Shown: one piece after another, positions 7,218 to 24,089 of the stretch
Layout of the letters: each line of letters starts with the position of its first letter
How positions within the stretch are numbered: position 1 is the stretch's first letter
From: Butyrivibrio sp.
GTDB taxonomy: Bacteria > Bacillota > Clostridia > Lachnospirales > Lachnospiraceae
DNA: 64,000 nt
Direction: 5' to 3'
NCBI GenBank assembly: GCA_017535785.1
Contig: JAFXTN010000008.1
Span: 62,001-126,000, forward strand
Program-made: the position numbers and the translations under genes
Notes under the pieces: generated by a model
The model's database searches: none
Told to the model about the DNA's origin: nothing
The model's input: only the letters and a program-made list of their open reading frames with translations

Positions 7218-7970
7218 ATGAATAAGAGAGGCGTACAGCTTGCTACAGGACTTATCTTTGCGGGAATGGTCGCAATGACAGGTTGTGGAAGCGCACAGAC
7301 AACAGGTGCAGAGGCTCCTGAGACAACAGGTGTGGAGACAGAGGCTCCCGCTACAGATTTTGCAGAGCCCGAAGCAGAGGCTCCTGCAGCAGATGTATCT
7401 GCTGATACAGAGGCAGTTGAGGAAGTAGAAGTTCCTATCGAGGAGAATGAGTCTACATTATCGGATAGCGGAAACCGCGGTGAGATCGGAAAGCTTACAA
7501 ACTTCAGAAGTCTTAAGGAAGTAGAGAATTCTGTTACCAGCAAGCAGGGTTTTGCTTATCTTAACCTTCAGGGTGCAAAGGTTTCAGCTATTGCGGTAGC
7601 AAATGAATTATCAGCCGCTAATACCACACACTCAGTGTCAATATATACTAAGAAGGACGGAGAAGATAAAGTATATCTTGCCGGAACACTTGATGTAAGA
7701 GAGTTTAAGATCAGCGGAAGCGGTGTGTTATACTCCAGCTACAATGGTACTTATGAAACATATTTCTTATCAACAGACGGAAGATCACTTGAGCACAAGG
7801 ACTACATTGAATACGGCGGAGTAGGTGAAGATTGTAAAACAGCTTATTTCAGAGCTAATAATACTTCATCAAAGGAATATCGCCAGATGAAGGCTACAGA
7901 ATTTTATGCAATGAAGCAGGATGTCCTTCAGAAGTGGAACGATGTCACATTTACAAGAGGCACAAAGTAA
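7218..7970 (+). CDS. Array paralog 4: lipoprotein of unknown function (250 aa)
   Basis: A lipobox (MVAMTGCGS) is followed by a long Ala/Glu/Thr-rich linker of about 45 residues (ETTGVETEAPATDFAEPEAE), then VEVPIEENE and the shared domain with GFAYLNLQGAKVSAIAVAN, LAGTLDVREFKISGSG, NGTYETYFLSTDG, LEHKDYIEY and an FTRGTK end. Linker length is the main difference between paralogs, which suggests the domain must stand off from the membrane by different distances. The ATG at 7218 has AAAGGAG about 10 nt upstream; a TTG two codons earlier is possible. Only the 3' half of the leader hairpin is kept here. Confidence 0.75.
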   Translation: MNKRGVQLATGLIFAGMVAMTGCGSAQTTGAEAPETTGVETEAPATDFAEPEAEAPAADVSADTEAVEEVEVPIEENESTLSDSGNRGEIGKLTNFRSLKEVENSVTSKQGFAYLNLQGAKVSAIAVANELSAANTTHSVSIYTKKDGEDKVYLAGTLDVREFKISGSGVLYSSYNGTYETYFLSTDGRSLEHKDYIEYGGVGEDCKTAYFRANNTSSKEYRQMKATEFYAMKQDVLQKWNDVTFTRGTK

Positions 7971-11204: not shown

Positions 11205-11273
11205 AATAGCAAGGTCGTGGGGCGCGACATCAGGTTTTATTCAATAATGAATTAAATGATGTTGGAGGGGACA

Positions 11274-11990
11274 ATGGTAAAGATTGCTATTTGCGATGAC
11301 TCTAAATTCATGCGAGGCGAGATCAAGAAGAGGATCCTTGACTACTCCATGAAAAAAGACTTTGACTATACGCTTAAAGAGTATGACGCAGGAGAGAAGC
11401 TTATCGGATCGGGAGAGAAATACGATCTGATATTTATGGATTACGAATTTGAGAACAACGGTGAGAATGGGCTTGAGATCGCTAAGAAGATCAGAAGCTA
11501 TGACAAGAATTCCACTATTGTTTTTGCGACGAGCTATCCGTCTATCGTTTTTGATGCGTTCGAAGTCGGCACGTTTCGTTTTTTGACTAAGCCGATTGAT
11601 GATAAAAAGTTCTTTGATGTTCTAGATGCTTTCTTAAAGACTATGGAAGAGGACAATGTCCTTAAGATCCGATTGGATGGAGAGAACCATTTCTTTAAAG
11701 AGAGTATAATATCTTATGTTGAAGGTATGGGTAAAAACTGTATCTTACATTTCTGTGACGGCCGTGAAGAGATGGAGTGCCACGAGACACTTGGCGCCAT
11801 CGAGGGACGTCTATCCCCCCAGAAATTTTACAGATGCTATAAGTCGTTCTTGATCAACTTGGCTCAGGTTGACTCTTACAATCATGAAGAGGTTACCATG
11901 AGCACTGGTGAGAAACTGCTTATCAGCAGACTAAAGTACAAGGAGTTTAACAATATCTATTCAGATTATCTTGTAAAAGTAGGGGTATAA
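11274..11990 (+). CDS. LytTR-family response regulator (AgrA/LytR-like)
   Basis: The N-terminal receiver domain has the acidic pair CDD (residues 8-9), the phosphoacceptor Asp56 in LIFMDYEFE and Lys in the LTKPID turn. Residues about 135-238 form a LytTR DNA-binding domain (ISYVEGMGKNCILHF, then FYRCYKSFLINLAQVDSY). The start is set at the ATG at 11274, behind GGAGGGG; an in-frame ATG 6 codons earlier has no ribosome site. LytTR proteins of the AgrA group bind pairs of 9-bp direct repeats 12 bp apart. Two such pairs lie at 13324 and 21767, so this protein most likely drives the small ORF at 13458 and the lanthipeptide precursors. Confidence 0.9.
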   Translation: MVKIAICDDSKFMRGEIKKRILDYSMKKDFDYTLKEYDAGEKLIGSGEKYDLIFMDYEFENNGENGLEIAKKIRSYDKNSTIVFATSYPSIVFDAFEVGTFRFLTKPIDDKKFFDVLDAFLKTMEEDNVLKIRLDGENHFFKESIISYVEGMGKNCILHFCDGREEMECHETLGAIEGRLSPQKFYRCYKSFLINLAQVDSYNHEEVTMSTGEKLLISRLKYKEFNNIYSDYLVKVGV

Positions 11991-11993
11991 GAA

Positions 11994-13319
11994 ATGGGAG
12001 AATTATGTCAACAGCTGGCAGTTATCTTTGTGATATACACTGCCCGCGCTATATTGTGCTTTGCAAATTACCGGATCGCATTCGACAAATACTTTGATTT
12101 CCCGGCACTTAAGTGGAAAAAGACAAATTGGATATGGATAGGACTTTACGTATTCATCATGTATATGTACAGGCCTATGATAAATTACGGACCAAGGTCA
12201 TTAAGAAATGTCGTTTTGATCATTTATCTTGTGCGTATTGTTCCGTTTTTGTGGGCAAGATACGGATTCAGACCCATATATCCGGTGATCGTTTTATTTT
12301 ACGGAAGTACCGTGGATAGCATAGCTCAGAATATAGGATTTTTATTTTTCGGCAATCTCAGAAACGGAATATATGCTAATTTCATGGCGGATATATCTAC
12401 GCTTATTACAGAGCTTTTAGTGTTTGCGTTCATTATGGTAATGTTGTTCCTTGAACGCGCGAAGGCGATTAGATTATGTTTTACCAGGCTCACCATTGGT
12501 GAATATGTGATTCTTTTTCTGGCAAATATGTCTTATGCAATATTGGAAGGAAATATATTCAGACTCAATTCATCCAATAAATATATGATAGCCTTCAGCA
12601 TAGCAACATTTATATTTTTGATGGCTGTTATCATGCACGTTATTTTAGTAAGAGATCAGAATACATCTATGAACAATATGATAGGTAATCTGAAGGAGCC
12701 TATGAAGGAGATTACCGCTTCATATATAGAGATGAATGAGAAAAATACCGAATTAAGAAGATTCAGGCATGATACCAAAAATCTGTTATTGGTACTACAT
12801 TCGCTTCTGGAAGAGGGTAAGACTAAGCAGGCTGCCGAGTTTATCAATAAGATGCAGGAAACAATGCAGAGCAGTCAGCATAAAGCTTATGATACGGGTA
12901 ATTTCATTGCAGATGCATTGCTTGAATATAAAGGCAAGGTTGCAGCTCAAAAGGGGATAACCATGACATTTGAAGGGTGTATTCCCAGTAGCAGAGTAGA
13001 AGATGTAAATCTTGTCATACTGATATCAAATCTTCTTGATAATGCAATAGATGCAGCCAAGAAGGTGGATGGAGAGAAAAAAATCGAGATAGAATCCATA
13101 CTTAAAAAGAATATCTGGATCTTATCGGTTAAAAATTCATGTATAGATGACGTGGTCATCCGAAACAACAGGATAGAGACAACAAAAGAAAACAAAGAAG
13201 CGCATGGATTCGGGCTATTGAATATAGAGCGCGTTACCCAGAAATATTCGGGAAATCTGCAGCTTAGCTGCGAGAACTATGTGTTTGTTGCAAGAGCTAC
13301 ATTAATGCTCACGGCATAA
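11994..13319 (+). CDS. AgrC-like sensor histidine kinase (HPK10 group)
   Basis: The first about 225 residues hold six or seven membrane spans and no large external loop, as in peptide-sensing AgrC kinases. The kinase part has the phosphoacceptor His259 in RRFRHDTKNLL, the N-box NLLDNAIDAAKKV and a GFGLLNIERV G-box of the GHKL fold. It starts 3 nt after the response regulator stop, so the two form a matched pair. Kinases of this type normally sense a peptide encoded nearby. The nearest candidates are the seven-codon ORF just downstream and the lanthipeptides themselves. The 441-residue length is normal. Confidence 0.9.
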   Translation: MGELCQQLAVIFVIYTARAILCFANYRIAFDKYFDFPALKWKKTNWIWIGLYVFIMYMYRPMINYGPRSLRNVVLIIYLVRIVPFLWARYGFRPIYPVIVLFYGSTVDSIAQNIGFLFFGNLRNGIYANFMADISTLITELLVFAFIMVMLFLERAKAIRLCFTRLTIGEYVILFLANMSYAILEGNIFRLNSSNKYMIAFSIATFIFLMAVIMHVILVRDQNTSMNNMIGNLKEPMKEITASYIEMNEKNTELRRFRHDTKNLLLVLHSLLEEGKTKQAAEFINKMQETMQSSQHKAYDTGNFIADALLEYKGKVAAQKGITMTFEGCIPSSRVEDVNLVILISNLLDNAIDAAKKVDGEKKIEIESILKKNIWILSVKNSCIDDVVIRNNRIETTKENKEAHGFGLLNIERVTQKYSGNLQLSCENYVFVARATLMLTA

Positions 13320-13323
13320 AAAA

Positions 13324-13390
13324 ACAGTTTGTTCCCAAAATAATACTGTTTATTCCAATAATCGTAATTACGTCCCAAATTTTGTAATAT
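13324..13390 (+). promoter_or_regulatory. LytTR-regulated promoter upstream of the seven-codon ORF
   Basis: ACAGTTTGT (13324-13332) and ACTGTTTAT (13345-13353) form a 9-12-9 direct repeat, the layout bound by AgrA-type LytTR regulators. After 31 bp comes TAATAT (13385-13390), a likely -10 box, with no good -35 box, as expected for an activator-dependent promoter. The precursor promoter at 21767-21833 has the same repeat spacing and the same 31-bp gap to its TAATAT. Confidence 0.75.
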
Positions 13391-13457
13391 AGAATCAGGT
13401 AGTGAACAGAGACAACTTGAAAGCTTATATCAAAATGATGAAAGGGAGGTAACATTT

Positions 13458-13481
13458 ATGCCGTGGGATTGGGGTTTCTAA
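13458..13481 (+). CDS. Seven-codon ORF encoding MPWDWGF; candidate signal or leader peptide
   Basis: ATG at 13458 is followed by Pro-Trp-Asp-Trp-Gly-Phe and TAA. An excellent ribosome binding site (GGGAGG) sits 8 nt upstream. The ORF has its own LytTR-type promoter about 70 bp upstream and an intrinsic terminator 33 bp downstream, so it looks like the only coding content of a short inducible transcript. It has no signal sequence and no double-Gly leader. It could be an unusually short signalling peptide for the adjacent kinase, a translated leader that influences the hairpin, or part of a small RNA. The signals around it are visible; its function is inference. Confidence 0.5.
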   Translation: MPWDWGF

Positions 13482-13514
13482 TTTAAAAAGTATTCGAAAA
13501 AACGTTAATGAGTG

Positions 13515-13548
13515 AGAGGGCAGCCTTTTGGGGCAGGCCCTCTTTTAT
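13515..13548 (+). terminator. Intrinsic terminator after the seven-codon ORF
   Basis: AGAGGGC (13515-13521) pairs with GCCCTCT (13537-13543) and is followed by a T-run. With the promoter at 13385 it would define a transcript of about 150 nt. Confidence 0.75.
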
Positions 13549-13591
13549 TGCACAAAGTTCCATTAAAAAATGCCGTATTATTCTGACTAAG

Positions 13592-13630
13592 GGAATCAAC
13601 TGTATCAAAAATGCAGTTGGTTCCTTTTTT
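13592..13630 (+). terminator. Second intrinsic terminator upstream of lanM
   Basis: GGAATCAACTG and CAGTTGGTTCC pair over 11 bp with one G-T pair and are followed by six T. It stands between the small-ORF transcript and lanM, so lanM probably has a promoter in 13631-13780. I could not identify that promoter with confidence. Confidence 0.8.
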
Positions 13631-13702
13631 GTCCTCGTTAACTCCCCAAGCCGTTATTTATAGGTATTAATTGCTAAGATATGCATGTCAGGTGATAACA
13701 AA

Positions 13703-13740
13703 CGGGAATCGGGCCGAGGCTGAGCGTTTCCCGATTTTCA
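13703..13740 (+). promoter_or_regulatory. Hairpin in the lanM leader, possible attenuator
   Basis: CGGGAA (13703-13708) can pair with TTCCCG (13728-13733), followed by ATTTT. It lies about 70 bp before the lanM start and could be a weak terminator or attenuator. The stem is short, so this is tentative. Confidence 0.35.
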
Positions 13741-13807
13741 CCTTTGAAGATAAACAGATGCAAGAAACGTATAGATAAGAAGTAGAAGAAGGGCTGGTTA
13801 GAAGACT

Positions 13808-16804
13808 ATGAATGAGATGATCAAGAGGGCAAGAACAATCGAAGAAAAACGCCGGGCTTATACCGGACAAACAGACGTGGACTACAGCTACTTAAAGGAG
13901 TGGCGTGATGTCAGGACGTTGCTTAAGGACAAAACTTACAAAGAGATGCTTAAAGAGAACAATATGACAGAAGATGAATTTGCATATACGCTTCAGCCTG
14001 ATGTTGATCTTGATAAGCAGGAAAGCGACAACTGGTATGACACCTACGAAGAGATCATTAACACATTCAACGAAGAACTGATCAATACAAAGGCAGGTGT
14101 CGGACTTGCTTCATTACCTTTTTCCGCATATCTGGAAAATAGGCTCAGCAAAGTAATAGATAATCTTAAGAATATAAAAGTTGAAGAAAAAATCATGAAC
14201 GCCTTTATTGAAGGCCACATAGCAGAGATGTTTAACGTTTTTGGAAAGCTCACTGCATTAAGGCTTGCAATATATAAAGAGCATCATAAGTTCAAAGCCA
14301 GAAACGAAAAGAAGCAGTTCACAGAGTTCCTTGAGAATTCTTTCGGAAAGAAAGAAGATTTTATTTCGTTTTATGAGAGCTATCCGGTAGCCGCAAGAGT
14401 GGCTACCGTAAGGACTCTTTTTATGATAAAGAATTATTCCGATATTCTTGAGCGTCTTGAAAAGGACCACGAAGAGATAGAGAAGTTTATTGGAACAAAA
14501 AAGCTTGTGCTTACGGATATTTCATTATCCACAGGTGACTCACATGCACAGGGAAATTCGGTATCAATCCTTAAATTTGGGAAGAAAAAGCTTGTTTATA
14601 AGCCAAAGGATCTTGAAATAAGTCAAGCCTTTGAACAATTCACAGATTGGTTTACAAATGCTTCGGGCATGCTTGATATCAAGATTCCCAAAGGGATTTA
14701 TAAAGATAATTATGCATACAACGAATTTGTGGGAAAGATCTATTGTAAGTCTGAAGAAGAAGTAGAGCACTTCTATATAAGATACGGCTATCTTGTCGCT
14801 ATCTGCTATCTGCTCAATATAAATGATTTACATTTGGAGAACATCATTGCTCACGGCGAGTATCCGGTGATCATTGATCTGGAAACTCTTTTCCAAATGC
14901 CTTCACCGATTGAGGGAGAATCAGCGTTCATGGATATGCTGAAACGTTTGGAGACTGAGTCTGTTGTCGCTTCTATGCTGCTTCCTAAGCAGATGAGTCT
15001 TGGAGGAAAAGAAGCGATCAATCTCAGTGCGCTTGATGGAAAAGGCGGAGAGCTTTCAGGAGATTATCTTGTTCCAAAGAATGTAGATTCCGCAGATTTT
15101 CATTTTGAAAATATAAAGGGACGTTTCCCTGAAGGGGATAATATTCCTCAGTATGGAAAGAATAAAGATGTAGACGTTTCAAAATATAATCTTGTGATAG
15201 TTGAGGCTTTCGAACAGTTCATGAACTTTATTCTTGAACATAAATCAGAGGCTCTTAAGGCACTGGAAGTATTCAAGGGAAAAAAGGTCAGAGCTCTCCT
15301 TAAGTCAACCGAGAGATATGCATCAATGATCCGTTATGCAAATCATCCCAGCTATAACGGAGATATGAAGTATAGGGAACGCCTGATGATGAATATCTGG
15401 GCCTATCCTTACAAAGATAAAAGAGTCGTAAAGAGCGAAATAAAAGATCTGCTGTTTAACGATATTCCTATCTTTTTTACACATACAGATTCTCGTGATG
15501 TTATTGACAGTCGAGGATATGAATATCCGGATTATTTTAAAATTTCGGGTTATGAATTATCCAGAAAAAAGCTTTTGATGCTGACAGAAAAAGAGATAAA
15601 GCTTCAGAAAACCATAATGACACTTTCTCTTGGGATTATGGATCCATTCCTTAACAAGAGACCGGGTAAGACCGGAATTGTTTCTGGGTCAAAAGAGCTT
15701 CACTACATAGCACAGGCCAAGATCATTGCGGATAAGCTTATGAAAGAAGCTTATGTTAAAGGTGATGAATGCACTTTCATAAATCTTGACTGCGATAAGG
15801 ATGAAAAATGGGGACTTAGAGCATGTGAACCTGATCTCTATGGTGGATTAAGCGGAATCGCAGTTGCTTATCTTGAGCTTTACAGAGCTACCGGTGAGGA
15901 TAGATATCTGGATTTCTATCACATGTTGATGAAGTCGGCGATAAATCAGGCTAAGATGGCAAGCGTGTCCTGCGCATTTACGGGACGTTTGACACCAATG
16001 TATCCGATGATCCTTGAAAAGAAATATCTTAATACAGTACATGATATTGATTACCTTAAAGATACGATGAAGGCAATACATAAGATGACAGATGAGGTCA
16101 TGGAGAAATATGAGCACAATGACTATGTGGCAGGTCTTGCAGGGATAGTTAGGTTACTGAGACTTGTTAAAGAAAACTTCCCTGAAGTTGAGTTTGCCAA
16201 AGAAAATCTGGATAGGTACATAGAATTTACGAAGAAAAGAGTAAACAAAGAATTTGAGGAAGGGAAAGCTAAAGCCGGTATGGCACATGGCATCAGCGGA
16301 ATGGTATACGGTCTCGTATCCGGAGGAAATTATGATGCCAGAAGAGTTAAAGAGCTTCTTTCTCATGAATATCGCTTAGGAATTGATCCCGTGAAAGACT
16401 ATAAGTGGTGCTGGGGTTATCCGGGCATGATCCAGGCAAGGATTGCAATGACTCGAATTGACGATGCCCTTGTTAACAAGAGACAGCTTAACAGTCTGAT
16501 AAACAAGTTTGAGGCAATGCTGAATGAATCCGTAGGATCGGATACGCTATGCCACGGAACGGGAAGTATCGTGACAACACTAAAGATGTTGCATGAGTAT
16601 ACCGGGGACAAGAAGTGGATGGAATATCTTAAGAGATATATGTCTGATATGTACATGCATTCACTTTATGAAGGTTACAAAGTTAGCAAGGTTGGAGATA
16701 TCGAAAGCAAAGGTGTATTTGACGGAATCTGCGGAGTTGCCTGGATGTATCTGTACGCTGAGCTTGATATAAACAACATATTGCTTCTTGAAATGGATAA
16801 GTAA
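13808..16804 (+). CDS. lanM: Class II lanthionine synthetase LanM
   Basis: The 998-residue enzyme has the usual two parts. The N-terminal dehydratase (DUF4135) carries GDSHAQGN near residue 244 and INDLHLENIIAHGEYPVIID near residues 337-356; it would phosphorylate and eliminate Ser and Thr in the precursor cores. The C-terminal LanC-like cyclase, from about residue 665, has the zinc ligands Cys868 (in WCWGYPG), Cys915 and His916 (in LCHGTG), so ring formation should be intact. Length is normal for LanM. It heads a tight run lanM-reductase-lanT-lanP. The ATG chosen has only a poor ribosome site (AAGG about 15 nt upstream), so the exact start is uncertain by a few codons. Confidence 0.95.
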   Translation: MNEMIKRARTIEEKRRAYTGQTDVDYSYLKEWRDVRTLLKDKTYKEMLKENNMTEDEFAYTLQPDVDLDKQESDNWYDTYEEIINTFNEELINTKAGVGLASLPFSAYLENRLSKVIDNLKNIKVEEKIMNAFIEGHIAEMFNVFGKLTALRLAIYKEHHKFKARNEKKQFTEFLENSFGKKEDFISFYESYPVAARVATVRTLFMIKNYSDILERLEKDHEEIEKFIGTKKLVLTDISLSTGDSHAQGNSVSILKFGKKKLVYKPKDLEISQAFEQFTDWFTNASGMLDIKIPKGIYKDNYAYNEFVGKIYCKSEEEVEHFYIRYGYLVAICYLLNINDLHLENIIAHGEYPVIIDLETLFQMPSPIEGESAFMDMLKRLETESVVASMLLPKQMSLGGKEAINLSALDGKGGELSGDYLVPKNVDSADFHFENIKGRFPEGDNIPQYGKNKDVDVSKYNLVIVEAFEQFMNFILEHKSEALKALEVFKGKKVRALLKSTERYASMIRYANHPSYNGDMKYRERLMMNIWAYPYKDKRVVKSEIKDLLFNDIPIFFTHTDSRDVIDSRGYEYPDYFKISGYELSRKKLLMLTEKEIKLQKTIMTLSLGIMDPFLNKRPGKTGIVSGSKELHYIAQAKIIADKLMKEAYVKGDECTFINLDCDKDEKWGLRACEPDLYGGLSGIAVAYLELYRATGEDRYLDFYHMLMKSAINQAKMASVSCAFTGRLTPMYPMILEKKYLNTVHDIDYLKDTMKAIHKMTDEVMEKYEHNDYVAGLAGIVRLLRLVKENFPEVEFAKENLDRYIEFTKKRVNKEFEEGKAKAGMAHGISGMVYGLVSGGNYDARRVKELLSHEYRLGIDPVKDYKWCWGYPGMIQARIAMTRIDDALVNKRQLNSLINKFEAMLNESVGSDTLCHGTGSIVTTLKMLHEYTGDKKWMEYLKRYMSDMYMHSLYEGYKVSKVGDIESKGVFDGICGVAWMYLYAELDINNILLLEMDK

Positions 16805-16823: not shown

Positions 16824-17570
16824 ATGAAAAAGATATTTGTTTTGATCGGCAGTAGACAAAAAAACGGCAATACAACCGATTTTGCAAAACGGATAACGGA
16901 TAGATTAGACAAAGAGAAGTTTGAAGTGGAATATGCTTATCCGCAGGATTTTAATATTGCACCGTGTGTCGGGTGCTCAAGATGTTTTTTGCAGGCGAAG
17001 TGTGTTAGCAGAGATGATCTTCCTTTACTGCATAAGAAAATATTGGAATCCGATCTGTTTATCATAGCATCGCCGGTGTATATGCATTATTTTACAGCTG
17101 ATCTAAAACTGATAATTGATAAGTCTTCGTGGTGGGCACATACACTAAGACTTCAGGGAAAGCCTGTGGTGATACTGAGTACCTGCGGAACGAATGGACA
17201 TGACACGGTAATAAAGGCGCTTAGTAAGATCATGACATATATGGGAGGCAATGTAATTGCATGTTCAAATGCAGCGCAGCTTCCCAAGCAGCTTGATAAT
17301 GAGAAGTGGATGCAAGAGGTTTCAGGGGAGATCGCAAAACGTATTAACAAGTATGCACATATCCCGCATCAGTCTAACCAACATATAGAAGAGGTATTTC
17401 CGTATATGAAGGCAGCAGCGATCATTCAAAAGGAACAGGGTCAGAATATCGGCATGGAGATAGAAGAGTTTAAAGAATATGTCTTCTGGCGTGATACGGG
17501 AATGGAAAATTACGACTCTTTTGAAGATTACTTAAAAGAAAAATATATTTGCAAGGAGGTAGTGGTTTGA
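16824..17570 (+). CDS. Flavodoxin-fold NAD(P)H-dependent FMN reductase-like protein
   Basis: The 248-residue protein starts with the FMN phosphate-binding loop of the NADPH-dependent FMN reductase/iron-sulfur flavoprotein group (GSRQKNGNTTDFAKRI). It then has a Cys cluster CVGCSRCFLQAKC at about residues 49-61, and SPVYMHYFTADLKLIIDKSS, the typical flavin-contacting segment. It overlaps lanT by 4 nt and follows lanM by 19 bp, so it belongs to the biosynthetic operon. Possible jobs are reducing dehydroalanine or dehydrobutyrine to D-amino acids (a LanJ-type step) or keeping precursor Cys reduced. Known LanJ enzymes belong to other families, so the first job would be new. The role is inference. 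Confidence 0.8.
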   Translation: MKKIFVLIGSRQKNGNTTDFAKRITDRLDKEKFEVEYAYPQDFNIAPCVGCSRCFLQAKCVSRDDLPLLHKKILESDLFIIASPVYMHYFTADLKLIIDKSSWWAHTLRLQGKPVVILSTCGTNGHDTVIKALSKIMTYMGGNVIACSNAAQLPKQLDNEKWMQEVSGEIAKRINKYAHIPHQSNQHIEEVFPYMKAAAIIQKEQGQNIGMEIEEFKEYVFWRDTGMENYDSFEDYLKEKYICKEVVV

Positions 17571-19732
17571 GAGTTAGATTTCAACAGCAATGTGAACATT
17601 CTGAATGTGGCCTTGCCTGCGCCTCTATGATGCTGGACTATTTTGTTGATAAAACGAAACTATCAGGGCTTAGAGAACGATATGGTGTCCCAAACGGTGG
17701 ATATAATCTGTTGCAGATCCAAGAGGTGCTCAAAGAAAACGGAGTACTTTCCAAGGCGATAAAGATTGGAAGAGAATCACTCAAGGCAGTTCCAAAGCCG
17801 TTTATAGCATTTTGGGATCGTAAGCATTTTGTGGTGGTTGAGAAGGTGTCATCGGGATCGGTGTCGCTTGTAGACCCTGCACTTGGCAAAAAGAAAGTGA
17901 GCAATGATGAATTTGAAGAGCATTTTTCAAAGATCATCTTATATCCCACAAGTGATTCTAAAAGAAAATTCCAGTTACCAAAGCTTCACCCGGTACTGGT
18001 TGAAAACGGAAAAAAGAACGGCAAACTGCTTTTGTTTACACTGGCATTTTCAATGGTCCTGCAGTTTATGAGTCTTTTGGTTCCGTATGCAATACAGAAC
18101 ATAGTAGACGGATTCGAAAATAATACAGTTTTTAGCTTTAAAGTATTGCTTGCGATAGTTATAGGTCTGTCGACGAATTATTTTGTCTTCAATCTGATAC
18201 GAACGCGGCTCATTACCAAGCTGCAAACGACGTTTGACAAAGGATTCTTGGGCGATACGATCCAGCAGCTTTTGGACCTTCCGTATTCCTATTTTGTTAA
18301 CAGGAGTAAGGGAGAACTGATATACAGGATCAATTCAAATACATATATAAGGCAGATCATTGTAGACAGAATGATAGAGCTTATGATAGATATCTGCTTC
18401 TTCTTCCTGTATCTGGGAGCTATGATGCGTTACAGTCCGGCACTTGCGACATTTACGATATTTGTTGCGGGAGCACTGTGTCTGATCATGGATGCGAACA
18501 CTAAGATAAATCGAAAGATTGCTCAGAACGAGATGGTAGTTACGACAAAATCTCAGGACATGATAAATGAGATGGTAAATAACATTTTTACCATCAAATC
18601 AACCAACTCGCAAAAGAATCTTTTTAATAAGTGGCAGGACAATTTTGATAAACAGATCGGACTTGAGAAGAAGCGCGCCAGATATGCATCTTATCTGTAT
18701 AACGCAACGCAGACTATTCAGATCTTTTATCCGTTATGTATCTTCCTTGGAGGATATTTCCTGGTTATGCATAACAAGATGACCTTAGGTGGAATTGTAG
18801 CGTTTAGTTCACTCGGAACATCATTCCTTGGACCTATCGTTGCGATCATGAGTTCATATGGACAGCTTGTTGCTGTAAAGATCTATCTTGAGAGACTGCT
18901 AGACATAATGGATACGCCTAATGAGACAGAGACAGAAGGAAAAGAACTTCCGGCAGAGTCTTGCAGAGAGATAGATATGGATCATGTCTTTTACAGATAT
19001 AGTCAGTTTTCAAAATATGCAATATCTGATGTTTCGGTCAGCATAAAGCCGTTTGAAAAGGTTGCGATCGTCGGAAGCAGTGGATCCGGTAAATCGACAA
19101 TGATGAAAGTTATGGCGAGTCTTTATCCCGTGACGAACGGAAGTGTGTCATATGGAAAGAAAGATGTAAGAGACTTAAATGTACATAGATTAAGAGAAAA
19201 AGTGGGAATTGTTCTTCAGGAGAACATGTTGTTTAGCGGAAGCTTCAGAGAGAATATCACGATGGGGCGTGATTTCTCGGATGAAGAGATAAACAGAGTT
19301 CTTGCAGCAACTAATCTTACAGGACTTGTGGCGAGCTTCCCGCTGGGACTTGAAACCAGGATTTCAGAAAGCGGACAGAACCTGTCAGGAGGACAGAGGC
19401 AAAAGATAGCGATAGCAAGAACTATCATTTCAAATCCTCAGATAGTCTTTATGGATGAACCTACCAGTGCATTGGATAATGCTTCGGAGAAGATTGTCAT
19501 GGATTATCTGTTCAATATGAAAGCAACTTTGGTGGTTGTAGCTCATAGACTAGCAACTATTCAAGATTTTGACAGGATCATTGTTATGGATAACGGAAGA
19601 ATCGTGGAACAGGGCAATCATGAAGAGTTGCTTGCGAAAAACGGCTTCTATGCAAATCTTTACAGAATGCAACCACAGCATGACCACAGCAGTATAAAAG
19701 GGGTTGAAAATGAAGAAAGGTATATTTCTTAA
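17567..19732 (+). CDS. lanT: C39-peptidase ABC exporter LanT
   Basis: The start is set at the TTG at 17567, overlapping the upstream stop (TTGA), with AAGGAGG 7 nt before it. The N-terminal C39 peptidase has Cys14 (HSECGLAC), His87 (RKHFVVVEK) and Asp103 (VDPALG), so it should cut leaders after double-Gly-type sites. About five or six membrane spans follow, then an ATPase domain with GSSGSGKST, LSGGQRQK and IVFMDEPTSALD. It would export the modified peptides and cut after the GA or GS of the leader. At 721 residues it has the normal length. The next gene starts inside its last 23 nt. Confidence 0.95.
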   Translation: MRVRFQQQCEHSECGLACASMMLDYFVDKTKLSGLRERYGVPNGGYNLLQIQEVLKENGVLSKAIKIGRESLKAVPKPFIAFWDRKHFVVVEKVSSGSVSLVDPALGKKKVSNDEFEEHFSKIILYPTSDSKRKFQLPKLHPVLVENGKKNGKLLLFTLAFSMVLQFMSLLVPYAIQNIVDGFENNTVFSFKVLLAIVIGLSTNYFVFNLIRTRLITKLQTTFDKGFLGDTIQQLLDLPYSYFVNRSKGELIYRINSNTYIRQIIVDRMIELMIDICFFFLYLGAMMRYSPALATFTIFVAGALCLIMDANTKINRKIAQNEMVVTTKSQDMINEMVNNIFTIKSTNSQKNLFNKWQDNFDKQIGLEKKRARYASYLYNATQTIQIFYPLCIFLGGYFLVMHNKMTLGGIVAFSSLGTSFLGPIVAIMSSYGQLVAVKIYLERLLDIMDTPNETETEGKELPAESCREIDMDHVFYRYSQFSKYAISDVSVSIKPFEKVAIVGSSGSGKSTMMKVMASLYPVTNGSVSYGKKDVRDLNVHRLREKVGIVLQENMLFSGSFRENITMGRDFSDEEINRVLAATNLTGLVASFPLGLETRISESGQNLSGGQRQKIAIARTIISNPQIVFMDEPTSALDNASEKIVMDYLFNMKATLVVVAHRLATIQDFDRIIVMDNGRIVEQGNHEELLAKNGFYANLYRMQPQHDHSSIKGVENEERYIS

Positions 19733-21761
19733 AATAGCGTTTAACATGCTTCTTATAGCCCTTCTAACCATATTCATCGGCAGCTTCTCCATAACGGCGG
19801 AAGCTGCTGAGGATAAGGAAGAAACCATGGATATCCTGCTAAAAGAAAATGCGGATATCGATAAGGTTAGTGAGGAGATAAAAGAGCAAGATGAAAAAAT
19901 CCAAATTGAAATATGCGAAGACATTAATTTGCTTCATCTTGTCTATCCGGAGTCAGTTGATATGGAGGAGATTGTACAAGATGAGAGTATCAAGAGCCAG
20001 ATAGAGGTAACGGGAGAACTGCCAAAGATTGTAGATCCTAAGGATGATATAAGAGATGTTGATGTTTCTGATATCACACCGGAGAGCGAAGAGATGGCTG
20101 ATGAAAGCATCGACGATTACGATCTGTTTGATCTTCTTGCATGGCATCTGGATGAAGTCACCGAAGATAGAAAATCCTTGGAATATGCGACCGGAAAAGG
20201 CATAAGGATTGCTCTTATAGATAGTGGAGTTGATACTACGCACCCTGTTTTATCCGGAAGACTTGATCTGGAAAGAGGAAAGTCATACGTGGATGATGAT
20301 GACAGTCTTACGGATTATCACTGTCACGGAACGGAAACAGCGGGGCTCATAGCACAGATCGCACCTGATGCGACGATCGTACCATATAAGGTAATGAATG
20401 CCACGGATGGTGAATCACGCTGGACTCTTGCGGCGATAGTTGATGCGGTAAATGATGGCAATGATGTAATAAATTTAAGCCTCGGTACATATAAGTGCGT
20501 GGATGACTGTGATGAACGTATTTTGATAGCTGCATATAAAAGAGCTATCAGATACGCCCAGAACAATGATGTAGCTGTTTTTGCATCGTCAGGCAACAAG
20601 GGCATTGATCTGGACGAAAACTATGAGTCAAACAGAGTGCTCCATTTGCCCGGTGAGATAAAAGGAGTCAATACTATTGCCTCCGTATGGAACGGCTCAG
20701 AAGCCTCATACAGCAACTACGGTTCATGCGTAGAATTCTGTGCTCCGGGAGGAGATCTGGTATATACAGACGGATTAATAGACTTAACGGCCTTTATCTA
20801 TGTTACGTATCCAACTTATTTAGATAATGGGCTTACGGCAATCGGAATACCGCAAGGATACAATATCTCTTACGGAACAAGCTTGTCATCGGCTGTAGCG
20901 GCTGCCTGTTTTGCGGACATTTATTCATACGGAAAAGAAAAACATCCGTATTTTCACATAGAGGATGCTTTGGATCTTATGACAGCCGGAAGTAAAGATC
21001 TCGGAGATGAAGGAAAAGATGTACATTACGGAAACGGCGAGATCAATATTCTGAAGGCTATCGGGGAGACCGGATCAAGATACAGTGGTGAAGTTACAGA
21101 GGAAGGCGAGAAATCGCGAACATATCGTAATCACAGGATCACAACCGAGTATGAGATCACGGAGGAATATGGTGATACCTACCATGTTGATGTAACTATT
21201 ACCAATGATACACAAGGAACTATACATAAATGGGAAGTAGCGATGGATCTTGATGATGAGATCGATCAGATCTGGAATGCGAAATCCCGTAGGGAAAATG
21301 ATCGAACCATAATATCCGGTGAATCATATGATCAGGATATCAGCGCAGGAGAATCTGTAAGCTTTGGGTTTATTGCTAAGAAGTCATCAAGTGAAGATGA
21401 TATAAGACTTCCGGATGAGATCATTTTGGTGAATGAGAAATATATGATAAAGCCCGAGGATTACAGTGTTGATCTGGAAATTTCGTCGAGTTGGGATGCT
21501 GGATTTGTTGCTAATGTGACGATCACAAACCTTTCAGATCATGATATATCCGACTGGAAATTGGAATTCACCTATGAAGCCGACATTGAGAATATATGGA
21601 ATGCGTCGATAGTGGAAAAAGATGATGATTATTATTCGATCTTAAATGACGGAAGTAATCAAAATATACCGGCAGGCTCTTCTGTGACCTTTGGCTTTAT
21701 CGCAGAAGGAAATGAAGAGAAAGAGATCGGGAACGTATCACTAATAAGCATTACCAAATAA
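19710..21761 (+). CDS. lanP: Subtilisin-like lanthipeptide protease LanP with two CBM2-like modules
   Basis: After a signal peptide (IAFNMLLIALLTIFIGSFS) and an acidic propeptide-like region to about residue 145, the S8 domain has Asp171 (LIDSGVD), His206 (HCHGTETAG), an Asn in SSGN and Ser391 (YGTSLSS). Residues about 470-570 and 585-683 are two related beta-sandwich repeats with VDVTITN...WEVAM...IWNA...SAGESVSFGF and VANVTITN...WKLEF...IWNA...PAGSSVTFGF, the pattern of family 2 carbohydrate-binding modules. The enzyme would act outside the cell and trim the GDVxxE tag left by LanT, as CylA does in cytolysin. The ATG at 19710 is behind AAGGGG; the gene overlaps lanT. The binding modules are unexpected for a LanP. 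Confidence 0.9.
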   Translation: MKKGIFLKIAFNMLLIALLTIFIGSFSITAEAAEDKEETMDILLKENADIDKVSEEIKEQDEKIQIEICEDINLLHLVYPESVDMEEIVQDESIKSQIEVTGELPKIVDPKDDIRDVDVSDITPESEEMADESIDDYDLFDLLAWHLDEVTEDRKSLEYATGKGIRIALIDSGVDTTHPVLSGRLDLERGKSYVDDDDSLTDYHCHGTETAGLIAQIAPDATIVPYKVMNATDGESRWTLAAIVDAVNDGNDVINLSLGTYKCVDDCDERILIAAYKRAIRYAQNNDVAVFASSGNKGIDLDENYESNRVLHLPGEIKGVNTIASVWNGSEASYSNYGSCVEFCAPGGDLVYTDGLIDLTAFIYVTYPTYLDNGLTAIGIPQGYNISYGTSLSSAVAAACFADIYSYGKEKHPYFHIEDALDLMTAGSKDLGDEGKDVHYGNGEINILKAIGETGSRYSGEVTEEGEKSRTYRNHRITTEYEITEEYGDTYHVDVTITNDTQGTIHKWEVAMDLDDEIDQIWNAKSRRENDRTIISGESYDQDISAGESVSFGFIAKKSSSEDDIRLPDEIILVNEKYMIKPEDYSVDLEISSSWDAGFVANVTITNLSDHDISDWKLEFTYEADIENIWNASIVEKDDDYYSILNDGSNQNIPAGSSVTFGFIAEGNEEKEIGNVSLISITK

Positions 21762-21766
21762 AAAAT

Positions 21767-21833
21767 GCAGTTTGTTCCAACTTTAATACAGTTAATCCTA
21801 AAAAGGAAAGTAATTAAAGATATGTTGATAATA
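21767..21833 (+). promoter_or_regulatory. LytTR-regulated promoter of the lanthipeptide precursor operon
   Basis: GCAGTTTGT (21767-21775) and ACAGTTAAT (21788-21796) form a 9-12-9 direct repeat starting 5 nt after the lanP stop. TAATAT at 21828-21833 is the likely -10 box, 31 bp after the repeats, exactly as at 13324-13390. Precursor expression should therefore respond to the regulator encoded at 11274. Confidence 0.75.
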
Positions 21834-21881: not shown

Positions 21882-22064
21882 ATGAGAATAAAAAAATTTG
21901 TAGGAGAAGCATTCGAGGAATTGACCGTTGATGAAATGAAAATGGTCCAGGGATCCGGAGATGTTGAGGCGGATTTCAATTACATGTCGCTCTTGAGCCA
22001 GGCTAATGCGGCCATGGCAGTAACGGCATCACCTGTTTTGATAACACTTGATGGAAGGTGTTGA
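21882..22064 (+). CDS. lanA1: Lanthipeptide precursor A1
   Basis: The 60-residue peptide has a cytolysin-type leader (FEELTVDEMKMVQGSGDVEA). LanT should cut in QGS|GDVEAD, and LanP would then release a 29-residue core beginning FNYM. The core has three Ser, two Thr and a single Cys at its very end, with Thr five positions before it (TLDGRC). It is the only member with GS rather than GA, and its tag ends in Asp instead of Glu. It is first in the operon, directly behind the LytTR promoter, with GAAGGAG before the ATG. Confidence 0.85.
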   Translation: MRIKKFVGEAFEELTVDEMKMVQGSGDVEADFNYMSLLSQANAAMAVTASPVLITLDGRC

Positions 22065-22136
22065 ACAAAACGGTTGCACATAAAAACAGTTAGCTAACGA
22101 AAAAACAAAAAAACAGAAGAAAAGGAGAAAACGAAC

Positions 22137-22349
22137 ATGGCACAGGAAAAGATTAATGAAGTAGTAGGAGATTCTTTTGAGGATCTTAAGCTTGATGAGA
22201 TGACAGAAATCCAGGGCGCAGGAGATGTTGATCCTGAGACAACACCTGCAACACCCGCTATTGTAGTTGCAAGTGAGGCAATTATCAGCGCAGGTGCTAC
22301 AGCAGCTGCAAGCGTTCTTACTGCAAGAACAGTTAAGGGAAAATGCTAA
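22137..22349 (+). CDS. lanA2: Lanthipeptide precursor A2
   Basis: The 70-residue precursor has the leader FEDLKLDEMTEIQGAGDVDPE. The predicted 36-residue core starts TTPATPAIVV and ends TVKGKC. Cytolysin subunits start TTPVC or TTPAC; here the ring-forming Cys is replaced by Thr, so only the C-terminal Cys can form a ring, probably with Thr five residues before it. The core is rich in Ala, Ser and Thr (nine Ser/Thr). A strong AAAGGAG site precedes the ATG. This is the longest core of the set and closest in layout to CylLL. Confidence 0.85.
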   Translation: MAQEKINEVVGDSFEDLKLDEMTEIQGAGDVDPETTPATPAIVVASEAIISAGATAAASVLTARTVKGKC

Positions 22350-22409
22350 TAGTATCGGATTCATATTAAAACTAAAACCAAAACATCAATTGAAAAGGAG
22401 AATAATATC

Positions 22410-22613
22410 ATGGAAAACGAGAAGAAATTTGAGAAGATCGTAGGAGAAAATTTTGAGGCTTTGAATTTAGAAGATATGGCTAATATCCAGGGTGCAGGAG
22501 ACGTTGATCCTGAGATCACACCTGCAACACCTACAACACCTTTAGTATCAAAGGCTGTAACAGCTATTGCTTCAATCATTGCCAGCGGCGCACTTTCAGC
22601 TGCTAAGTGTTAA
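22410..22613 (+). CDS. lanA3: Lanthipeptide precursor A3
   Basis: The 67-residue precursor has leader FEALNLEDMANIQGAGDVDPE and a 32-residue core that starts ITPATPTTPL and ends SAAKC. The final S-x-x-x-C spacing is that of the C-terminal lanthionine in cytolysin subunits (SLKHC, SAKFC). As in A2, the N-terminal Cys is missing. A2 and A3 share the DVDPE tag and the TPATP start and look like a duplicated pair. Confidence 0.85.
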   Translation: MENEKKFEKIVGENFEALNLEDMANIQGAGDVDPEITPATPTTPLVSKAVTAIASIIASGALSAAKC

Positions 22614-22667
22614 TCAACTATAGTAGCTCTTATAGAAATAGATAATAGAGTGAATAAAGGAGATAAC

Positions 22668-22838
22668 ATGGGAAAAAAGAAACTTGATCAGATTGTTGGT
22701 GCAGCATACGAGGAGCTTAATACAGAGGATATGCAGCAGATTCAGGGAGCAGGAGATGTGGAAGCTGAGACTGCGGTACCTGTAATCGTAACTATTGCAA
22801 CTGTAGCAAGCGCAGTTTACTCCTCTCAGAAGTGCTAA
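22668..22838 (+). CDS. lanA4: Lanthipeptide precursor A4
   Basis: The start is set at the ATG at 22668 behind AAAGGAG; an upstream in-frame GTG lacks a site. The 56-residue product opens MGKKKLDQIVGAAYEELNTE, continues DMQQIQGAGDVEAE, and has a 22-residue core from TAVPVIVT to SSQKC. The S-x-x-x-C end matches A3 and cytolysin. From here on the leaders form a second subfamily (GAAYEDLNAEDMQQ) shared by A5, A6 and A8 and more loosely by A7. Confidence 0.85.
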   Translation: MGKKKLDQIVGAAYEELNTEDMQQIQGAGDVEAETAVPVIVTIATVASAVYSSQKC

Positions 22839-22861
22839 GTCACACGAGAAAAAGAGATAGT

Positions 22862-22899
22862 TCTGGGAGTGACTAAGGTTCACTCCCGGACATTTTCTT
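22862..22899 (+). terminator. Hairpin between precursors A4 and the membrane gene
   Basis: TCTGGGAGTG and CACTCCCGGA pair over 10 bp with one G-T pair and are followed by a T-rich stretch broken by C. It looks like a leaky terminator that would lower expression of A5-A8 relative to A1-A4. Confidence 0.6.
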
Positions 22900-22920
22900 T
22901 ATAAAAAAGGAGGATTAACA

Positions 22921-23247
22921 ATGCTTAATCAAAAAGTACTTTTAGTTTTATTGATCATTTCACTTGTAGCGGTATTGGGTATGGTTATCTGGAGAGCAAT
23001 TTATGTAACCAAGAATAAAGGTGATGAAAAAGCTCTAAACATACTTGCAAAGGCGAAGGCAGTATCATCATATACTTTGTGGTGGTGGCTGATCTGCTGG
23101 GGAGGTTTATCAACATTCCTATTCAAGGCCGATACAGTATTTACCATGAATAATATAGGAACTTTTATAGTGATCTTGATCGGTATGCAGTCCATAGTTG
23201 AACTTTGTGCAGCATACTATTACACCAAGTGTGTAAAGCAGGATTAG
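22921..23247 (+). CDS. Small membrane protein within the precursor operon; immunity candidate
   Basis: The 108-residue protein has three hydrophobic spans at about residues 5-24, 52-70 and 78-98, with a Trp-rich second span (YTLWWWLICWGG) and a charged loop between the first two. I know no family for it. It sits among the precursors, behind AAGGAGG, and no LanFEG transporter or CylI-like gene is seen in the locus. A self-protection role is the simplest guess from context, but helper or unrelated roles are equally open. Confidence 0.7.
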   Translation: MLNQKVLLVLLIISLVAVLGMVIWRAIYVTKNKGDEKALNILAKAKAVSSYTLWWWLICWGGLSTFLFKADTVFTMNNIGTFIVILIGMQSIVELCAAYYYTKCVKQD

Positions 23248-23282
23248 TTATAAAAGCTAATCGGATGAAGGGAGAAACAATT

Positions 23283-23465
23283 ATGGGAAAAAAAGAACTA
23301 GATAAGATTGTGGGTGCAGCATACGAAGATCTTGAGCAGGAGGATATGCAGCAGACACAGGGCGCAGGCGATGTAGAAGCTGAAATATATCCGACTATTG
23401 TAACTCCAATAGTTAATCCGGTATCACCTGCCGGATTGTCAGTATCGATGACTACTAAGATTTAA
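23283..23465 (+). CDS. lanA5: Lanthipeptide-type precursor A5, core without Cys
   Basis: The 60-residue product has the subfamily-2 leader (GAAYEDLEQEDMQQTQGAG, DVEAE) and a 26-residue core from IYPTIVTP to SMTTKI. The core has seven Ser/Thr but no Cys, so LanM cannot form lanthionine within it; only dehydrated or further reduced residues are possible. It is rich in Pro, Val and Ile. GAAGGGAG precedes the ATG. The frame was chosen by its leader match. Confidence 0.8.
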   Translation: MGKKELDKIVGAAYEDLEQEDMQQTQGAGDVEAEIYPTIVTPIVNPVSPAGLSVSMTTKI

Positions 23466-23494
23466 GACATTTATGAAGAGAAAGGAGAATACTT

Positions 23495-23674
23495 ATGAGC
23501 AAGAAGGAACTAGATAAGATTGTAGGCGCAGCATATGAGGATCTTAATGCAGAGGATATGCAGCAGACTCAGGGTGCGGGCGATGTAGAGGCTGAAACAG
23601 TATCTTTAGCTATTACAGGAGCAGTCGTTTCCACACTGGTGAGTGGAGCAGTTTCAATTAAAAAGTGTGGTTGA
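23495..23674 (+). CDS. lanA6: Lanthipeptide precursor A6 (59 aa)
   Basis: The ATG follows GAAAGGAG by 8 nt. The leader is almost identical to that of A5 and A8 (ELDKIVGAAYEDLNAEDMQQ, then TQGAGDVEAE). The predicted core has 25 residues, from TVSLAITG to SIKKCG, with seven Ser/Thr and one Cys, again in S-x-x-x-C spacing but followed by a final Gly. It is short enough to be missed by automatic gene calls with a 60-residue limit. Confidence 0.8.
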   Translation: MSKKELDKIVGAAYEDLNAEDMQQTQGAGDVEAETVSLAITGAVVSTLVSGAVSIKKCG

Positions 23675-23693
23675 TAAAAGGGAGAACTAAACT

Positions 23694-23870
23694 ATGAGCA
23701 AAAAGGATTTAAATAAGGTAGTGGGTGCATCGTATGAAGATCTCAATGAAGAAGATATGAAGCAGACTCAGGGAGCCGGAGATGTGGATCCCGAAGTGGC
23801 AACACCTGTACTATCGATGGTTGGCCCTATAGCATCTATAAGTGTGACAGTTATTATAAATAAAAAGTAA
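23694..23870 (+). CDS. lanA7: Lanthipeptide-type precursor A7, core without Cys (58 aa)
   Basis: An AAAGGGAG site lies about 10 nt before the ATG. The leader is MSKKDLNKVVGASYEDLNEE followed by DMKQTQGAGDVDPE. The predicted 24-residue core runs from VATPVLSM to IINKK and has five Ser/Thr and no Cys. With A5 it is one of two members that cannot carry a lanthionine ring. It starts 20 bp after A6. Confidence 0.8.
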   Translation: MSKKDLNKVVGASYEDLNEEDMKQTQGAGDVDPEVATPVLSMVGPIASISVTVIINKK

Positions 23871-23903
23871 TGTGATATCGATGAATAAAGAAAGGAAAAG
23901 GCC

Positions 23904-24089
23904 ATGAGCAAAAAGGATTTAGATAAGGTTGTAGGCGCAGCTTATGAGGATCTTAATGCAGAGGATATGCAGCAGTCTCAGGGTGCAGGAGATGTAAACG
24001 CAGAGGTAGTATCAAACTGCTTAACAATAACTCCTTCAGTGGTAGTCACAAATCCTCCTATACTGAGTGTCAGCATTGGGCGCTTATAA
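23904..24089 (+). CDS. lanA8: Lanthipeptide precursor A8
   Basis: The 61-residue product has the subfamily-2 leader (GAAYEDLNAEDMQQSQGAG, DVNAE). The core has 27 residues from VVSNCLTI to VSIGRL. Its only Cys is at core position 5, so a ring could form only with the Ser at position 3 or in the reverse direction with downstream Thr/Ser. The rest would be linear. This is the last precursor before the gene at 24129. Confidence 0.8.
   Translation: MSKKDLDKVVGAAYEDLNAEDMQQSQGAGDVNAEVVSNCLTITPSVVVTNPPILSVSIGRL

Follow-up and report, generated by a model that had tools for sequence, protein, structure and literature searches.

A seven-codon mini-gene encoding MPWDWGF, located between a histidine kinase gene and lanM in a Butyrivibrio sp., is best read as the gene of an autoinduced leaderless pheromone that would be sensed by an AgrC-like membrane kinase, and we give this reading a probability of about two in three. 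The DNA analyzed is a stretch of 64,000 nt (the window) on contig C22 of the source genome, G000. The mini-gene under its regulator-type promoter is real and recurrent. The leaderless pheromone, though unproven, is by far the best reading of it, and the features of the sequence that suggest it are the regulator boxes, the ribosome-binding site, the ORF, the terminator, the recurrence of the arrangement, the likeness of the boxes at three promoters (P1 to P3), the hypervariability of the kinase sensor, and the covariation of peptide and sensor.

Organization of the Locus

The gap between the kinase gene and lanM (13320-13807) contains, in order, the P1 box pair, an extended -10, GGGAGG, the ORF, a terminator, a second hairpin, and the P2 box pair, followed by lanM (Table 1). 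The initial annotation had described a LytTR-type direct repeat, a -10 box, a strong GGGAGG 8 nt 5' of the ATG, the ORF MPWDWGF with its TAA, and an intrinsic terminator, all placed between a peptide-sensing kinase and lanM, and each of these elements was located again: the -10 is of the extended type, the terminator has a stable fold, and the flanking genes encode a GHKL kinase and a LanM. By sequence, the nearest solved relative of this kinase is AgrC (entry 6e52, E 2.2e-11, profile A3), and a simple hydropathy scan gave five hydrophobic segments; the NCBIfam scan gave it no name. Its N-terminal half, about residues 1-215, is hypervariable, as judged from sensor versus catalytic identity.

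The promoter scan list contains no sigma-70 consensus promoter at P1; therefore, a -10 is present, but a -35 is not recognizable. The region 13506-13550, which includes the terminator, folds with -21.2 kcal/mol, and none of 200 shuffles was equally stable; this terminator, the stem of which carries an internal bulge, is absent from the list of a simple terminator scan. The reading frame of MPWDWGF is open for 30 codons upstream, yet it holds no ATG, GTG, TTG, or CTG.

Table 1. Features of the locus (positions in the window)
Feature	Position	Strand	Remarks
LytTR response regulator	11256..11990	+	Pfam Response_reg and LytTR; directly 5' of the kinase gene
GHKL (AgrC/ComD-type) membrane histidine kinase, proposed receptor	11994..13319	+	Pfam HATPase_c_5
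P1 LytTR box pair	13325..13356	+	CAGTTTGTTCC (13325-13335) and CTGTTTATTCC (13346-13356), 21 nt apart
Extended -10 of P1, TGTAATATAG	13383..13392	+	aligned in nine loci
Ribosome-binding site GGGAGG	13444..13449	+	8 nt before the ATG
Seven-codon ORF MPWDWGF, proposed leaderless signal peptide	13458..13481	+	ATG CCG TGG GAT TGG GGT TTC TAA
Intrinsic terminator of the P1 transcript	13514..13549	+	hairpin and T-run
Second terminator-like hairpin	13589..13627	+	3' arm doubles as the first P2 box
P2 LytTR box pair before lanM	13614..13645	+	boxes 21 nt apart
lanM, class II lanthipeptide synthetase	13808..16804	+	TIGR03897, 696 bits
C39 peptidase-ABC exporter of the lanthipeptide cluster	17549..19732	+	
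P3 LytTR box pair before the lanA array	21768..21799	+	same in L068, L069, and G026:C84
Class II lanthipeptide precursor (lanA) array	21882..24089	+	two precursors were scanned (lichenicidin A2 family); the others were assigned by reading their leaders
108-aa membrane-protein ORF	22921-23247		inside the lanA array

Two further genes of the lanthipeptide cluster deserve mention. A subtilase with matches to the cellulose-binding modules CBM2 and CBM49 is encoded at 19704-21761, and it is possible that it is a leader peptidase tethered to plant fiber. The 108-aa membrane-protein ORF has no NCBIfam match; membrane-protein-like ORFs of 104-128 aa recur with lanA arrays or behind boxed promoters (the one in the window, L044, L046, and L084:2657-2971) and are candidate immunity proteins.

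Recurrence in Related Genomes

At E<=1e-60, the kinase family is present in 11 of 79 genomes of the genus and in at least two of 397 genomes sampled across the family (G000 and, more distant, G464), when at most four candidates per genome were scored. A species-genome collection provided 12 loci, from Butyrivibrio species and Lachnospiraceae MAGs. After the removal of duplicates, and with the window included and G464 left out, 14 kinase loci were compared. In G464, a regulator follows each of the two more distant kinases, and no mini-ORF was seen there.

The P1 box pair is followed by one strong ribosome site and an ATG mini-ORF in 10 of the 14 loci, including the window, at a distance of 87-117 nt from boxes to ORF. 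The mini-ORFs have 7-30 codons, that is, 7-15 in nine loci and 30 in the tenth (L045), the product of which is unlike the other members in character. Three peptides begin with MPWD: MPWDWGF in the window, MPWDFFG in L042, and MPWDFGY in L038. Two species share MIDDIGGWFWP (L040 and L041), and the remaining peptides are MLDDIIVYIGIHCIY (L037, a 15-mer), MLDYISGLLGGGH (L043), MWEELWGIINGGH (L047), and MLGWIEALVGIIRG (L056). Culturable carriers are B. hungatei XBD2006 for MPWDFGY and Butyrivibrio sp. INlla21 for MIDDIGGWFWP. Thus, the conservation of the gap that the initial annotation had proposed to look for holds for the ribosome site, the short ORF, and the promoter in 10 of 14 loci, but the seven codons are kept only as MPWD in three. 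Differing peptides at the other loci fit a signal only if the receptors change along with them.

The four loci without a mini-ORF at the equivalent place are G016/L039, which has four tandem kinases, L048, which is a partial kinase match only, L044, and L046. The last of these is the one instance of the pattern that the initial annotation had named as contrary to a functional ORF, namely, the same kinase and promoter without the short ORF. Its P1-type boxes lead to a 116-codon membrane-type ORF instead, and it has itself no lanM directly behind in the stretch read.

The shape of the regulator-kinase-peptide cassette is constant, whereas its neighbors vary and include lanM, an ABC transporter, RiPP-like small ORFs, and a transposase-like stretch. 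The stretch behind the ORF was folded in nine loci (all ten but L056), and in eight of them none of 200 shuffles was as stable as its hairpin; in L043, 8 of 200 shuffles fold as well, and in L042, the hairpin is of the P2 type. Downstream of the MPWDFGY gene, on the minus strand of L034:1-180, are tandem short RiPP-like precursors that start with MLKQVN.FSNVECN.

Chance Expectation and Controls

Eleven P1 gaps, the ten with a mini-ORF and that of L046, were scanned for a Shine-Dalgarno (SD) motif of at least 5 nt followed by ATG. Each contains exactly one, and in 10 of 11 gaps its ATG, 8-10 nt behind the SD, starts a closed ORF of 7-30 codons; such an ORF arose in 1.6-9.8% of the shuffles of each gap. 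The window as a whole (both strands) has 48 SD+ATG sites, 11 of which start ORFs of 5-40 codons; the combination of a box pair with an SD-ATG ORF of this length no more than 170 nt behind it is found a single time in the 64-kb window and in none of 40 dinucleotide shuffles. The pattern SD+MPWD has three matches in the 79 genus genomes, all just 3' of the kinase family, and its reversed control has none.

As a further control, 24 loci with distant GHKL kinases (L008-L031) were selected, and 22 were read after L027 and L029 had been dropped for their short contigs. No SD-preceded ATG ORF of up to 40 codons was found within 300 nt of any of these 22 kinases. About 310 nt behind one of them, that of L014, which belongs to another family, lies an SD-preceded ten-codon ORF, MPTAIIGVFW, which is possibly a further mini-peptide.

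LytTR Boxes and Their Specificity

Box pairs similar to P1 also precede lanM (P2) and the lanA array (P3), which the initial annotation did not mention. Because of this likeness, one regulator plausibly serves the three promoters, those of the mini-ORF, lanM, and lanA. The overlap of a hairpin 3' arm with the first box of the next promoter, present at 13589-13645 of the window, is repeated in L032, L035, L036, L040, L041, and L044.

The exact box pattern occurs at 29 places in 22 of the 79 genus genomes, and its reversed control matches three genomes. Fourteen of the places are in 8 of the 11 kinase genomes (none in G016, G072, or G087), and the other 15 are in 14 genomes that lack the kinase. 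The idea that the box pair is specific to the system genome-wide was therefore rejected. Two of the 15 kinase-free places were read: one is in G061, which has the regulator and a boxed lanM (L070, G061:C1:1549602) and no kinase of the family at E<=1e-60, and the other is inside a coding stretch of G080. The remaining 13 resemble coding repeats, as judged by their letters only.

Coding Potential of the Mini-ORF

Stop codons close to the ATG confine several of the ORFs: the open frame upstream is only 1 codon long in L041, 4 in L042, and 2 in L045. An in-frame ATG exists 3-22 codons further upstream in L040, L043, L047, and L056, without a ribosome site of at least 5 nt; the longer form is ruled out in L041, the sister of L040, by a stop codon in the same frame.

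Comparison of these two sisters shows that the ORF is the best-conserved part of the region. The MIDDIGGWFWP ORF with its stop codon is identical at 35 of 36 positions, with one synonymous change, and the surrounding promoter, 5'UTR, and 3' flank are 88%, 84%, and 72% identical. Within the MPWD trio, PWD is constant with a synonymous change at the Pro codon, and the tail remains aromatic/Gly.

Sensor Diversity and Proposed Peptide Pairing

Between kinases, identity is 24-56% in the sensor half (77% in the pair L040/L041) and 55-94% in the catalytic half. Across the 10 loci, peptide similarity rises with sensor similarity (r 0.59, permutation p 1e-4, kinship ignored), and it still does so when L041 is left out (r 0.39, p 0.014, kinship again ignored); the corresponding values for the catalytic domain are r 0.24, p 0.09, and, without L041, r 0.05, p 0.36. 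In this small sample of 9-10 loci, with statistics that ignore shared descent, peptide similarity thus appears to track the sensor domain and not clearly the catalytic domain.

The correspondence has its exceptions. In the sensor tree, the three MPWD kinases fall in a six-row group (85/76) with L037, which has a different peptide, and with two G016 kinases, which have none; a single receptor clade marked by MPWD peptides was rejected as an overreach, and the match between peptide and sensor is therefore not one-to-one.

A particular case is provided by G016, where four tandem kinases (L032:7949-14203, on G016:C2) have catalytic halves that are 87-94% identical and sensors that are only 37-52% identical, a pattern as would be expected of receptors diversifying for ligands. 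Between these kinases lies an ORF for a CPBP-like protease, named by eye, once whole and once shortened. A boxed ABC transporter follows the four kinases, and no mini-ORF was seen at the locus.

A Ruminococcus albus Plasmid and Distant Relatives

A related pair is encoded in another order, on the plasmid pRUMAL03 of Ruminococcus albus 7, the regulator of which is 38% identical to that of the window and the kinase 32% identical over 278 columns. Among 391 genomes of the class, the plasmid regulator matches only G000 at E<=1e-45 (best candidates, up to seven per genome). The plasmid locus (L099) contains two boxed mini-ORFs. One of them, MWLWPWLP, lies with its box pair and SD at 7795-7929 and precedes RiPP precursors that carry a huazacin-family annotation; the other, MQDWFDWWGW, has its box pair and SD on the opposite strand (4754-4604) and is oriented divergently to the regulator. 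None of 150 shuffles of the locus yielded even one boxed mini-ORF. Neither peptide is in the annotation table of the record, which is incomplete. The stretch behind MWLWPWLP folds no better than shuffles, with no terminator seen, and the name pRUMAL03 had no occurrence in the full-text literature matched.

Searches beyond these genomes were as follows. Class-wide, the kinase was found in 5 of 391 genomes at E<=1e-35, G000 included, and in the family of G795 in 28 of 115 genomes at 1e-30; among the loci fetched from both sets, with flanks of about 1500 nt, only that of G000 has boxes and a mini-ORF. Kinase relatives on plasmids besides pRUMAL03 are all below 60% identity, and three that were opened (H1, H17, and H24) gave no result. 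Boxes with a mini-ORF were not seen in Subdoligranulum and Paraclostridium plasmid stretches, and the Paraclostridium plasmid has an annotated AgrD-family peptide between the kinase and lanM. In viral contigs, 0 of 10 candidate relatives of the kinase were confirmed.

Proposed Mechanism and Alternative Readings

The leaderless signal that the initial annotation had offered as one option is favored because 10 of 14 loci retain the ORF with its ribosome site and LytTR promoter and because the peptide follows the sensor; signaling is the inferred part of this reading, and the codons vary. MPWDWGF would be the whole product of a quorum-sensing pheromone gene, presumably translated ready-made from its own short transcript of roughly 150 nt, and would leave the cell. 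The AgrC-like kinase encoded just upstream would bind and sense the peptide, and the phosphorylated LytTR regulator would bind the box pairs at P1, P2, and P3. If it acts as an activator rather than a repressor, control of its own peptide through P1 would be a positive feedback, and the switching on of P2 (lanM) and P3 (the lanA array) would lead to lantibiotic production at high density. In other lineages, the output would be an ABC transporter or other RiPP genes, with each lineage having its own peptide-receptor pairing.

Export is the weakest link of this scheme, as there is no leader, no AgrB nearby, and no EcsB match. In 10 of 11 genomes, AgrB (PF04647) and the kinase are encoded on different contigs; in G099, which retains the kinase and the ORF, AgrB was not found. 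EcsB (PF05975), which we take to be the PptAB-type exporter family, has no match in the source genome, and the C39 transporter of the cluster expects a double-glycine leader. The peptide may also act on the kinase from inside the cell or within the membrane.

Three other readings were weighed. The peptide might be an effector, such as a leaderless bacteriocin or an immunity or membrane-active peptide, coregulated with the cluster, with the kinase sensing something else, e.g., the lantibiotic, just as nisin itself is sensed in nisin autoinduction. The mini-gene does share the boxes of the regulator with cargo genes, and several peptide variants are hydrophobic, but the mini-ORF is tied to the 3' end of the kinase gene and not to any one cargo, it tracks the sensor domain, and 7-8 residues would be very short for a pore former. 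We consider this unlikely.

The other two readings, both raised by the initial annotation, fit less well than the leaderless pheromone. Ribosomes on a short translated leader with two Trp codons could control the hairpin and hence read-through into lanM, and the ORF indeed ends 32 nt before the terminator, with lanM following on the same strand. However, equivalent ORFs have from 0 to 2 Trp codons, with number and position not conserved (three of the nine distinct peptides contain no Trp), a separate boxed promoter lies before lanM, behind the second hairpin, and the arrangement is kept where no lanM directly follows in the stretch read (L037, L038, and L043), so that this reading is weak and very improbable. 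A regulated small RNA in which the ORF is incidental would agree with a predicted transcript that is short and has its own terminator. Yet the fold of the whole predicted transcript is hardly more stable than that of shuffles (z -1.1, 26 of 200 as good), and the Rfam scan of the region gave no family at gathering score and three sub-threshold matches, none on the ORF. What makes this noncoding reading weak is that 10 of 11 P1 gaps retain a ribosome site at 8-10 nt and a closed mini-ORF while the flanks drift, the ORF being what L040 and L041 conserve best; it is the least probable of those considered here.

Comparison with Known Systems

The leaderless pheromone reading has partial parallels in several known systems. 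Like the agr system (AgrBDCA), the locus combines an AgrC-type GHKL kinase, having a hypervariable sensor, with a LytTR regulator, and in agr the autoinduced promoters have paired direct boxes. Unlike agr, it lacks an AgrB protease encoded with the kinase, its ORFs of 7-15 codons leave no room for an AgrD leader and tail (only the L045 30-mer is long enough), and in place of the ring-forming Cys/Ser segment of AgrD, Cys occurs in only two of the nine distinct peptides, the L037 15-mer and the L045 30-mer. In ComCDE, Blp, and class II bacteriocin induction, an HPK10-type kinase and a LytTR regulator drive bacteriocin genes, and pheromones of the ComC/BlpC type are double-glycine precursors cut by a C39 exporter. 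Kinase and regulator are alike here, but the mini-ORFs have no leader: a leader ending in GG was not found, the ORFs being too short, with only 1-4 open codons upstream in L041, L042, and L045. Signals of agr- and Com-type two-component quorum sensing carry leaders, and, to our knowledge, every peptide signal that a membrane kinase reads is excised from a longer precursor, which has a leader or a dedicated protease.

The streptococcal leaderless communication peptides (LCP/SIP), as described in two reports, have about 8-10 residues and no leader and are encoded beside the gene of their Rgg/RopB receptor (PMC13361665, PMC6565748). The likeness to these is a leaderless ORF of mature length beside a proposed receptor gene, the receptor role being inferred in our case. 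The LCP system uses a cytosolic regulator and re-import of the peptide, whereas the window has a membrane kinase and a LytTR regulator next door, and no cytosolic Rgg/RopB receptor was found there.

A survey of bacteriocins in the Hungate1000 genomes, in its accessible portion, describes a Butyrivibrio class II lanthipeptide cluster with eight core peptides (PMC13289728), perhaps of the same kind as that of the window; lanM and many precursors are common to both. That portion does not mention a short regulatory ORF, and the word "leaderless" has no occurrence in the main text of the survey (PMC13289728). In the full-text literature searched, with subscription papers mostly outside it, we found no leaderless or short-ORF signal paired with a kinase or two-component system, no description of quorum sensing by a leaderless mini-pheromone and a membrane kinase, and no occurrence of the string MPWDWGF.

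There are, in our estimate, about even odds that these loci represent a new class of quorum sensing in rumen Clostridia, with leaderless and often aromatic mini-pheromones of 7-15 residues and polymorphic kinases, in Butyrivibrio and, with two peptides, on the R. albus plasmid, and that strains of the G016 type are eavesdroppers. G016, in which the locus has four divergent receptors in tandem and no mini-ORF was seen, would hear the signals of several rivals and raise its ABC-transporter defense. If the pheromone reading is true, a ready-made heptapeptide breaks the precursor rule for kinase-read signals and poses a clean export question. It would also suggest a reason why some such kinases seem to have no ligand, as the ligand gene may be too short for gene callers, and it would offer a synthetic on-switch for lantibiotic clusters in rumen bacteria. 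The differing tiny genes at the same spot in relatives may be overlooked neighbor sensing by gut bacteria. Judged by its predicted parts, the system resembles a cross between the LCP and the agr/Com-type quorum-sensing systems and would be a member of neither.
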